This document shows, one piece after another, positions 19,298-25,711 of a DNA stretch of 64,000 bases. Source of the DNA: Paracyclopina nana (Eukaryota > Arthropoda > Copepoda > Cyclopoida > Cyclopettidae); the NCBI GenBank assembly GCA_019096065.1, contig JAGUCH010000001.1, forward strand, positions 2,976,001 through 3,040,000. Direction: 5' to 3'. Position numbers and translations under genes: made by a program. The notes beneath the pieces are model-generated. The model was not told where the DNA came from. It did not search any database and saw only the letters and a list, made by a program, of their open reading frames with translations. Each line of letters starts with the position of its first letter. Positions within the stretch are counted from its first letter, which is position 1.

Positions 19298-19513
19298 CTA
19301 GTCAACGTAGGAAACTAACTTTGAGGTCCTGGTCGCGTGAACTTTCTCAATGTGACGATTCAAGTTACTCTTCCGGTTATAACTGGCGCTGCATTGGGTA
19401 CATTCATATGGCTTTTCACTTGTGTGAGTAAGCTGGTGTTCTTTGTACTTGCTCAAGTAGCGAAACGTCATCCCACATTGCTGGCATCGGGCCGTAATTT
19501 TTGCATCAAGAAG
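19298..19513 (-). CDS. Alternative C2H2 exon 12 of the BTB gene (most distal)
   Basis: Acceptor ATTTCAG, phase 0, starting [10 protein letters not shown], 71 aa. Fingers are CQQC...KYKEHQLTH and CTQC...[10 protein letters not shown], linker TSEKPYE. It is separated from the rest of the array by about 1 kb that contains a foldback element. No further finger-coding exon was seen downstream. Confidence 0.85.
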   Translation of the reverse strand, partial: LLDAKITARCQQCGMTFRYLSKYKEHQLTHTSEKPYECTQCSASYNRKSNLNRHIEKVHATRTSKLVSYVD

Positions 19514-25500: not shown

Positions 25501-25711
25501 TGCCCGGCCTATTTTTCTGCTGCGGCTTTGGTGCGAAGAGTTCGCTGAAGTAGGTTGAGCAGATGGATAATACTAATTTGTGGGCTGAAAACTCGCGTTT
25601 TCCACATGACAAGGTGACGTCAGTAAGGTGATCGCCCTGGCAAAGGGCCTCAGCAGTGCTGAAGAAAATCGAGTGGTGGTCGTTCCACCGAAGTTTGAAA
25701 TTCTCCCCCAT
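19298..25711 (-). CDS. BTB-domain transcription factor with an array of alternative C2H2 last exons (lola/mod(mdg4)-like architecture)
   Basis: The shared exon is 24989-25711 (241 codons), starting at [14 protein letters not shown]. Its BTB/POZ domain (about residues 4-120) has the insect-type signatures [44 protein letters not shown] and [13 protein letters not shown] linker follows with basic patches ([19 protein letters not shown], the latter containing a SUMO-type IKQE) and an acidic tail. The exon ends in phase 0 at LPPPE with donor GTAAGT. Twelve downstream exons each begin in phase 0 behind an AG acceptor, carry two C2H2 fingers and end with their own stop, so each can be the alternative last exon. 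Each isoform would be about 300-320 aa. BTB domains dimerise and C2H2 pairs set DNA specificity. The family is BTB-ZF; I cannot assign a one-to-one fly orthologue. If the donor is not used, the frame runs on to a stop at 24944. Confidence 0.9.
19586..20412. repeat. Diverged foldback repeat between the last two zinc-finger exons
   Basis: Both ends carry imperfect inverted copies of the same units. ACAAACTTGAG near 19597 pairs with CTCAAGTTTGT near 20391. ATAAAATACAAACTTGA and GACCCAATGTGCGAATTCAC near 19709-19750 pair with the inverse of GTGTGAACTCACACATTGGGGTC near 20260-20282. The unit is therefore repeated several times in opposite orientations. It resembles an old MITE or a nested pair of them; no target duplication is obvious. 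Confidence 0.5.
20505..20681 (-). CDS. Alternative C2H2 exon 11 of the BTB gene
   Basis: Acceptor ATTGTTGCAG, phase 0, 58 aa. Fingers are CELC...NLKRHMVIH and CSIC...[10 protein letters not shown], linker TGEKPFG. The stop follows almost at once after the second finger. Confidence 0.87.
   Translation of the reverse strand: MEGKCICELCQRTFASSGNLKRHMVIHTGEKPFGCSICSARFTQKCNLKIHTLKVHKT
21014..21226 (-). CDS. Alternative C2H2 exon 10 of the BTB gene
   Basis: Acceptor GTTTTGCAG, phase 0, 70 aa. Fingers are CMIC...ALKAHYLVH and CTEC...HLKRHLKRH, linker TGEKPYR, with an acidic/basic tail after the second finger. Confidence 0.88.
   Translation of the reverse strand, partial: GRSASRICMICSKFFKKTSALKAHYLVHTGEKPYRCTECGYSTSQKGHLKRHLKRHDPTELQDEIIPKDK
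21249..21437 (-). CDS. Alternative C2H2 exon 9 of the BTB gene
   Basis: Acceptor ATTTTTAG, phase 0, 62 aa. Fingers are CHIC...ALAIHMLIH and CEYC...[10 protein letters not shown], linker TGEKPFE. It has no ATG near its start, so it is only visible when read as a spliced exon. It is a close paralogue of the exon at 21640-21822. Confidence 0.86.
   Translation of the reverse strand, partial: DYRKTCHICYKTFNRPSALAIHMLIHTGEKPFECEYCGSKFNQKGVLKRHMIGKHGPGIVHK
21640..21822 (-). CDS. Alternative C2H2 exon 8 of the BTB gene
   Basis: Acceptor TTTTTAG, phase 0, 60 aa. Fingers are CKIC...ALTTHLLIH and CNNC...[10 protein letters not shown], linker TGEKPFK. It is clearly paralogous to the next exon (21249-21437): both share FNRPSAL in finger 1 and [10 protein letters not shown] in finger 2. 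Confidence 0.86.
21978..22070 (-). pseudogene. Decayed relic of a C2H2 exon in the BTB array
   Basis: On the minus strand this segment matches the neighbouring exon at 21640-21822 in patches: the region around the finger linker (CTCAAAGGGCTTTT on the plus strand), AGGGCTGA, and GAAGCAAATCTT followed by CAAG. It has lost the sequence between the patches, including the first finger's helix region and the TGEKP linker, and has no open frame. It appears to be a third copy of the tandemly duplicated exon pair next to it that has been deleted internally. Confidence 0.6.
22265..22486 (-). CDS. Alternative C2H2 exon 7 of the BTB gene
   Basis: Acceptor TTTACAG, phase 0, 73 aa. Fingers are CDIC...DLKKHVRVH and CHHC...[10 protein letters not shown], linker TGEKPHK. 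The acceptor is only 52 bp beyond the stop of the preceding exon. Confidence 0.88.
22539..22757 (-). CDS. Alternative C2H2 exon 6 of the BTB gene
   Basis: Acceptor ATTTTAG, phase 0, 72 aa, opening with a very basic stretch ([13 protein letters not shown]). Fingers are CDYC...DLRKHVKIH and CGIC...[10 protein letters not shown]. The linker is FGEKRNK rather than TGEKPY, and the first finger has Val where the core Phe usually sits, so its DNA-binding geometry may differ. Confidence 0.86.
   Translation of the reverse strand: MPAKKSRRGRKGQQRFECDYCGKGVRDRYDLRKHVKIHFGEKRNKCGICGCQFSWRSALQRHLQRIHGQNDT
22889..23095 (-). CDS. Alternative C2H2 exon 5 of the BTB gene
   Basis: Acceptor GTTTCAG, phase 0, 68 aa. 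Fingers are CPEC...DLKRHSRVH and CNFC...[10 protein letters not shown], linker TGERPYH. Confidence 0.88.
   Translation of the reverse strand, partial: VASKPSKLAGLFTCPECFKNFGGVGDLKRHSRVHTGERPYHCNFCKYKSALKGNLKKHIANIHNISMN
23203..23406 (-). CDS. Alternative C2H2 exon 4 of the BTB gene
   Basis: Acceptor TTCCAG, phase 0, 67 aa. Fingers are CPIC...CLRRHFRTH and CSTC...[10 protein letters not shown], linker TGEKPHI. The exon ends in a basic KLKKR tail. Only about 70 bp separates its acceptor from the stop of the preceding array exon. Confidence 0.88.
   Translation of the reverse strand, partial: VVLKGRNNCPICFKCFKEVACLRRHFRTHTGEKPHICSTCGYQTVQKGNLNRHIQRLHSDTVKLKKR
23476..23691 (-). CDS. Alternative C2H2 exon 3 of the BTB gene
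   Basis: Acceptor TTTTCAG, phase 0, starting with codons NEMVDK, 71 aa. Fingers are CDLC...KLRRHVYTH and CRFC...[10 protein letters not shown] with a slightly unusual linker, TDERPFS. Confidence 0.87.
   Translation of the reverse strand, partial: NEMVDKRKRYSCDLCGKAFLVPSKLRRHVYTHTDERPFSCRFCRYKCIDKSNLVLHEQRKHKQSVHEASRN
24005..24109 (-). pseudogene. Degenerate C2H2 exon of the BTB gene
   Basis: After a CTGCAG acceptor the phase-0 frame reads 34 aa and then hits TAA. The first finger keeps one Cys, the hydrophobic core and both His (LRKHLLMH), but the first Cys is replaced by Tyr (YSLC). The second finger starts CAIC and is broken by the stop codon immediately after its second Cys. A His still sits at the expected spacing beyond the stop. 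The acceptor lies only 4 bp beyond the previous exon's stop. This looks like a decaying array member; a functional truncated isoform cannot be excluded. Confidence 0.65.
24116..24349 (-). CDS. Alternative C2H2 exon 2 of the BTB gene
   Basis: It starts after TTGTTGCAG in phase 0 and encodes 77 aa with fingers CPIC...DLMRHMLTH and CRLC...[10 protein letters not shown], linker TGERPFV. Only 32 bp separate its acceptor from the stop of the preceding exon, and its own stop lies 4 bp before the next exon's acceptor, so the array is very tightly packed. Confidence 0.88.
   Translation of the reverse strand, partial: ELLPNQCPICKKVSYHHSDLMRHMLTHTGERPFVCRLCPHRSARRSSIRYHIQKRHRDIALGKDEAEITQYFYKVAL
24382..24591 (-). 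CDS. Alternative C2H2 exon 1 of the BTB gene
   Basis: The exon starts right after acceptor TTCCAG with ATGCGGGCATCAGC (phase 0) and encodes 69 aa. Its two fingers are CEFC...HLRRHWLIH and CELC...[10 protein letters not shown], joined by TGEKPYK. The second finger has a four-residue His spacing. It is the zinc-finger exon closest to the BTB exon (intron of about 400 bp). Confidence 0.88.

Follow-up and report, generated by a model that had tools for sequence, protein, structure and literature searches.

How can one constant exon be joined to any of twelve terminal exons that lie almost end to end? The question is raised by a locus of Paracyclopina nana in which an exon encoding a BTB domain is followed by an array of exons with two C2H2 zinc fingers each. 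We analysed it within a stretch of 64 kb (the window), which corresponds to C1:2976001-3040000 in a genome of 92 Mb in 10 contigs, labelled C1 to C10 here; coordinates without a contig label count from the start of the window. The BTB exon and the twelve-exon array together span 6.4 kb on the minus strand (25711-19298). We consider it very probable that they form one gene, whose single BTB exon would be cis-spliced to one of 12 interchangeable last exons. A preliminary description of this DNA had proposed a single locus with the logic of lola and mod(mdg4), and the match in phase, the stop codon of each finger exon and the presence of a sole strong donor all favour that proposal. The elements of the locus are listed below, with the predicted last exons numbered in gene order.

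24990..25711, minus strand: constant exon with a TTK-type BTB domain and linker; ATG at 25711, 240 codons open, phase-0 end
24984..24989, minus strand: splice donor CCTGAG/GTAAGT, consensus, phase 0; at 7.7 bits the sole strong donor of the locus
24382..24591, minus strand: last exon 1, two C2H2 fingers; no poly(A) hexamer ahead of exon 2
24116..24349, minus strand: last exon 2; next hexamer, AATAAA at 24037, within decayed exon A
23957..24109, minus strand: decayed exon A, two-finger sequence, degenerate and interrupted by an in-frame stop; profile match at 23957-24094 (19.5 bits, E-value 2e-7)
23476..23691, minus strand: last exon 3; ATTAAA overlapping the stop (23480)
23203..23406, minus strand: last exon 4; no poly(A) hexamer ahead of exon 5
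22889..23095, minus strand: last exon 5; ATTAAA overlapping the stop (22893)
22539..22757, minus strand: last exon 6; weak acceptor, no poly(A) hexamer ahead of exon 7
22265..22486, minus strand: last exon 7; AATAAA at 22084
22004..22089, minus strand: decayed exon B, found by blastn only; 69% DNA identity to 21850-21764 (the start of exon 8 and the preceding stretch)
21640..21822, minus strand: last exon 8, the closest duplicate of exon 9; AATAAA immediately past the stop (21639)
21249..21437, minus strand: last exon 9; AATAAA overlapping the stop (21253), 22 nt to exon 10
21014..21226, minus strand: last exon 10; AATAAA at 20884
20505..20681, minus strand: last exon 11; AATAAA overlapping the stop (20505)
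19558..20442, no strand assigned: long-inverted-repeat DNA transposon of 885 bp between exons 11 and 12, with a 9-bp target duplication GTAAGAAAC
19549-19557 and 20443-20451: the two copies of the target duplication GTAAGAAAC that flank the 885-bp transposon
19298..19513, minus strand: last exon 12; AATAAA at 19277 and ATTAAA at 19255

The identity of the constant exon is clear from several sources. Pfam recognised a BTB domain in it (PF00651, E-value 2e-26), and the string FKLRWN near the N-terminus of the protein is the FxLRWN motif of TTK-type BTB-C2H2 factors. Over its full length the exon matches BTB structures in the PDB, for example those of BCL6 and the TTK-type protein CG6765, and its first 45 residues by themselves gave no PDB match. 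A single search of the viral contigs in IMG/VR, with the constant exon as query, returned no relatives. At the DNA level, the array has no second copy in its own genome, where the sole other match was a 63-bp piece of the BTB at C1:3708658.

Downstream of the BTB exon, 12 intact open reading frames follow each other in order on the minus strand. By pattern search each of them encodes two C2H2 fingers and ends in its own stop; including that stop they measure 177-234 nt, and all 12 fit into 5.3 kb. Pfam was run on 10 of the 13 proteins, namely the constant exon and nine finger exons, and placed zf-C2H2 above the cut-off in all nine. When both strands of the 64 kb were searched with the C2H2 pattern, no further finger and no antisense finger exon was found; four cysteine-rich strings on the plus strand did match the pattern and look like chance. 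A profile built from the 12 exons and run on six frames of the window returned the same 12 and decayed exon A, and its four other matches had E-values of at least 0.8.

The reading phase ties the array to the constant exon. For all 12 finger exons, the acceptor with the highest score lies in phase 0 and thus matches the phase-0 donor of the BTB exon, an agreement that random phases would produce with a probability of about (1/3)^12. A CAG (nine exons) or TAG (three exons) codon stands directly ahead of every finger exon, so all 12 are entered in phase 0. We rejected a chance origin of the array pattern on the basis of the pattern search and this twelvefold agreement. The coordinates, the acceptors and the Pfam results therefore agree with what had first been noted, a BTB exon with a phase-0 end and 12 two-finger phase-0 exons with their own stops; donor phase equals acceptor phase throughout, as is expected of multi-way alternative last exons. 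On the gene strand, the donor with the next best score after that of the BTB exon is a GT of 4.0 bits inside the transposon. Within the finger exons, counted from the first finger, donor scores stay at or below 2.3 bits.

The spacing of the exons is tight. From one stop to the next acceptor, intact neighbours are separated by 22, 32, 52, 69, 107, 131, 202, 332, 424, 442 and 991 nt, where the gaps of 424 and 442 nt hold the decayed exons and the 991-nt gap holds the transposon. In the range of 4-70 bp given initially, the lower value of 4 bp applies to no pair of intact exons; decayed exon A would start 6 nt past the stop of exon 2. The claim that such spacing leaves little room for separate poly(A) sites was not supported. 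On the gene strand, AATAAA or ATTAAA occurs ahead of the next intact acceptor in 9 of the 12 exons. The distance from stop to hexamer is at most 40 nt in six exons (shuffle mean 1.1; none of 300 shuffles as high) and at most 100 nt in seven (shuffle mean 2.5; 3 of 300 as high). In five exons it overlaps or abuts the stop codon itself (simulated mean 0.63, P = 5e-5, in a test chosen post hoc). The hexamer of exon 9 begins 27 nt ahead of exon 10, and cleavage there and the next splice would therefore compete for one and the same stretch.

The finger exons also bear the mark of purifying selection. The proportion of nonsynonymous differences (pN) was below that of synonymous differences (pS) in all 66 pairs of finger exons, and for exons 8 and 9 the ratio of nonsynonymous to synonymous divergence (dN/dS) was 0.12 at a dS of about 1.7. 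These values indicate that the exons are maintained as protein. Taking positions -1, 2, 3 and 6 of both fingers as the contact residues, we obtained 12 different predicted sets. The suggestion that each isoform binds a different sequence is supported to this extent, although the sets of exons 8 and 9 differ at only one of eight residues. The finger pairs are predicted to bind DNA.

Several observations weigh against cis-splicing to 12 interchangeable exons. The splicing itself is deduced from DNA sequence, and the weight tables with which splice sites were scored were generic ones rather than tables trained for this species. The first bases of exon 5 also form a GT site that scores 3.0 bits, and the acceptor of exon 6 scores weakly (-2.3). 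Exons 1, 4 and 6 have no hexamer ahead of exons 2, 5 and 7, so their 3' untranslated regions (UTRs) would need to include the next finger exon. Three other arrays of this genome, L021, L028 and L009 (described below), serve as controls and gave a mixed picture, as the exons with a hexamer at most 100 nt from the stop number 5 of 19, 0 of 10 and 1 of 3, respectively; individual 3' ends are therefore not a general rule. In a tree of finger pairs the window's 12 exons do not form one clade, since exons of L009, L010 and L011 fall among them, so a share of the exon types could have arisen before the genes were duplicated.

What else could the array be? Tandem C2H2 sequences on one strand would be compatible with a single long polyfinger protein or with several unrelated zinc-finger genes. 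A polyfinger protein is hard to reconcile with exons that are not readily joined to each other in frame, because each has its own stop and lacks a good donor, while 7 of the 12 exon frames have no ATG at all ahead of the fingers, which argues against separate genes. We find both barely credible and rejected them, together with antisense exons, on the stops and donor scan, the ATG count and the pattern search. Trans-splicing, in which the BTB exon would be joined to separately transcribed finger exons, deserves more attention, as it has been reported for some isoforms of Drosophila lola and mod(mdg4) (PMC11426971, PMC4667647, PMC1947980), genes that have the same architecture of a constant BTB part and many phase-matched last exons. 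In the window, however, all 12 exons lie on one strand and in order, with no antisense finger exon in the pattern search, and 6 of the 11 gaps measure only 22-131 nt and so leave little room for internal promoters. A mod(mdg4)-like gene of Daphnia is moreover reported to be cis-spliced. Trans-splicing thus appears quite improbable here.

The array might also be mostly a non-functional relic, with one or a few finger exons in use and the rest decaying duplicates. It does contain two decayed exons, and the transposon between exons 11 and 12 was probably inserted recently, because a near-identical full copy exists at C1:7525376-7526262 (beside many diverged relatives, at least 93 matches). Against wholesale decay, all 12 exons retain both fingers, frame, acceptor and stop, and the excess of synonymous change extends to every pair, including exons 8 and 9, whose dS places them long past their duplication. 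We therefore regard a relic as highly improbable. The decayed exons and the close pair 8 and 9 suggest instead an array that grows and shrinks through local exon duplication and decay.

Under cis-splicing within one gene, the BTB donor would be joined to one of the 12 phase-0 acceptors, and the chosen exon would supply two C2H2 fingers and the stop, so that the 12 ends would be mutually exclusive in vivo. The choice would combine competition among acceptors with 3'-end formation, in which the hexamers near the stops may be used. Isoforms ending in exons 1, 4 and 6 would depend on the first signal further along, and their 3' UTRs would carry the following finger exon. The TTK-type BTB domain, common to all isoforms, should multimerise in each of them, and mixed oligomers with different DNA-binding ends would therefore be possible.

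We looked for a dedicated selector of the kind known from Dscam. Docking/selector pairing between 11 acceptor regions and intron 1 gave a mean duplex z of -0.18 and hence no overall signal, the best single duplex being that of exon 3 (z = -2.4), and no 7-mer was common to more than 3 of the 12 acceptor regions. On these grounds a Dscam-like choice was rejected. A kinetic contest along the transcript, between acceptors and poly(A) signals, would be the best remaining idea for how one exon is chosen. An extension of it, which we put forward tentatively and think rather doubtful, is that the array constitutes a minimal twelve-way switch that sets polyadenylation directly against the next acceptor, with cleavage signals fused to stops and nested 3' UTRs that contain unused fingers. 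At exons 9 and 10, 22 nt apart, the upstream cleavage site would share nucleotides with the next branch point and acceptor. Since the locus of 6.4 kb fits a single minigene, competition between acceptors and poly(A) signals is testable exon by exon.

Beside the locus, a neighbouring gene begins at 26327 on the plus strand and is oriented divergently. We take it to resemble the proteasome subunit Rpn10/PSMD4. The two start codons lie about 0.6 kb apart, so a promoter region common to the BTB gene and this neighbour is possible.

To which BTB family does the gene belong? The genome holds at least 152 Pfam BTB matches, and a tblastn search with the window BTB gave 86. The nearest are at C3:2.507 Mb (L009, 75% identity over residues 1-96) and C8:4.457 Mb (67%), followed by four at 50-57%. 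In all, 23 BTB regions were fetched. The BTB tree comprised the window, six paralogues, 14 other BTBs of the same genome and seven from Drosophila melanogaster (lola, mod(mdg4), ttk, br, fru, chinmo and lolal); among the fetched loci, L001-L008, L027, L030 and L031 were left out of it. The Drosophila sequences served as approximate references, and no weight should be given to the exact lengths of their branches. Both the window clade and that of the other arrays are supported by sequences of the genome itself. The window BTB and its six paralogues form a clade with support of 100/100, to the exclusion of all seven Drosophila BTBs and the 14 others. The phylogenetic check proposed at the outset, against lola, mod(mdg4), ttk, br and fru, thus separates the window BTB from all five. 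The nearest outside neighbour of the clade is a ttk-like BTB (L015), at a fork that is not resolved (77/75).

That the BTB is distinct from lola and mod(mdg4) is further borne out by loci elsewhere in the genome that are lola-like, ttk-like or carry FLYWCH arrays. L029 (C1:14.84 Mb) groups with Drosophila lola (99/96, for an N-terminal BTB part covering 46% of columns), which makes it the likely counterpart of lola; it is 74% identical to the lola BTB over 57 residues, and the fetched stretch contains two finger pairs. By E-value, the best full-length match to lola is instead L015 (59%). The window BTB, which does not group with lola, does not qualify as its orthologue.

Acceptor phase separates the window and its paralogues from the other arrays. 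Acceptors are in phase 0 in L009 (3/3), L010 (1/1) and L011 (2/2), whereas those of L021 and L028 agree on another phase (18 of 19 and 9 of 10). Phase-0 donor candidates were found in the window, L011 and L012, and phase-1 candidates after a conserved Lys in L021, L028, L022 and L023. Some of these assignments are provisional. L009 passed the donor filters with weak or internal sites only and L010 with none; L013 and L014 have phase-1 candidates only, near the frame end, as putative donors; the phase-1 donor used for L028 is weak (3.0 bits), with a stronger site of 5.2 bits in another phase at the frame end; and L023 has a phase-0 candidate listed as well.

The tree of finger pairs comprised 49 rows (12 from the window, 17 from L021, 10 from L028, 3 from L009, 1 each from L010, L011 and L027, and 2 each from L029 and L015), as some L021 exons and one L011 exon had been dropped by the pattern. 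It has 51 columns, and most of its forks are not resolved. The fingers of the window, L009, L010 and L011 nevertheless form one group apart from those of L021 and L028 (SH-aLRT, an approximate likelihood ratio test, 86 on 51 columns), and window exon 3 pairs with an exon of L011 (support 84). The linker TGEKP or TGERP occurs in 9 of the 12 finger pairs of the window and 2 of the 3 of L009, but in none of the 17 of L021 or the 10 of L028. As the BTB clade and the acceptor phase differ from those of the other arrays, we conclude that the window array expanded separately. The fetched stretches contain three finger exons in L009, two in L011 and one in L010, so the 12 exons would reflect either an expansion in the window gene or loss in its paralogues.

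Two further observations concern the window clade. L012 (C7:1.576 Mb) and L013 (C3:2.235 Mb), which lie on separate contigs, have near-identical BTBs, and the stretch fetched for each contains a single recognisable C2H2 finger. Some 12 kb away from the L011 BTB, the opposite strand carries a FLYWCH match (C2:11499166-11499378).

Having placed the gene, we compared it with related systems. The FxLRWN motif is reported to define TTK-type BTB domains, which are usually followed by one or two C2H2 fingers, form hexamers in Drosophila and occur in arthropods only, bar a few plant cases ascribed to lateral transfer (PMC11426971). Among the open-licence papers listed by our searches, none was seen to name the locus or to describe a dense C2H2 array for a BTB gene of a crustacean, which is weak evidence of absence.

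Within the window clade, L009 is the closest system. It shares phase-0 acceptors and has three finger-pair last exons at gaps of 40 and 6 nt, and differs in a BTB that is apparently split by an intron and in having 3 finger exons instead of 12. Like tramtrack, the window combines a TTK-type BTB with two-finger exons, yet the ttk-like L015 is a separate locus whose few finger exons are widely spaced in the 9.9 kb fetched. Its fingers resemble those of ttk.

The resemblance to lola lies in a constant region with a TTK-type BTB and many alternative last exons, most of them with zinc fingers. The window BTB is, however, 42% identical to that of lola, whose likely counterpart L029 stands elsewhere in both genome and tree. 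The 3' ends differ as well. Drosophila lola has 20 last exons, with 3' UTRs that are said not to overlap (PMC10551640), whereas at least three 3' UTRs of the window would overlap the next exon, and the nested 3' UTRs of the twelve-way switch would depart from lola in the same way.

With mod(mdg4) and the locus L023, the gene shares one BTB exon followed by many alternative last exons. In L023 (C9:6113581-6148602), a BTB is accompanied by 31 FLYWCH matches that extend over 35 kb of a single strand, one of them with an internal stop, and a smaller BTB-FLYWCH locus, L022 (C3:1573094-1574998), has three. These loci differ from the window in carrying FLYWCH instead of C2H2, in the phase-1 junction, located at the site shared by L021 and L022, and in their BTB clade. 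None of the 36 FLYWCH matches of the genome lies in the window, which is thus not a mod(mdg4) orthologue by this measure. In the tree, L023 and Drosophila mod(mdg4) do not fall together, so L023 is a candidate counterpart only.

The two other C2H2 arrays come closest in layout. L021 (C1:17.20 Mb; 17198800-17208700) has, behind another TTK-type BTB, 19 finger exons that occupy about 8 kb and include near-duplicate pairs, and L028 (C4:1.01 Mb; 1007900-1017800) has 10 exons by our count, all lacking a poly(A) hexamer at 100 nt or less from the stop. Gaps of 13-121 nt make up 14 of 18 and 7 of 9, respectively. In L021, 8 of the 18 gaps measure just 13-25 nt. Six of the eight exons concerned lack a hexamer over a distance of 250 nt, which makes nested 3' UTRs look likely in that array as well. 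Both arrays differ from the window in acceptor phase, in a BTB clade shared with the FLYWCH loci and in the missing TGEKP/TGERP linker. The window array is very compact, but L021, in the same genome, is slightly denser. The design itself is already well known in arthropods, and the window adds a further member in a BTB subfamily separate from the lola and FLYWCH loci. Beside the FLYWCH array and the two C2H2 arrays of the same genome, with their different clade and acceptor phase, it shows that expansion of the design took place in more than a single lineage of BTB genes.

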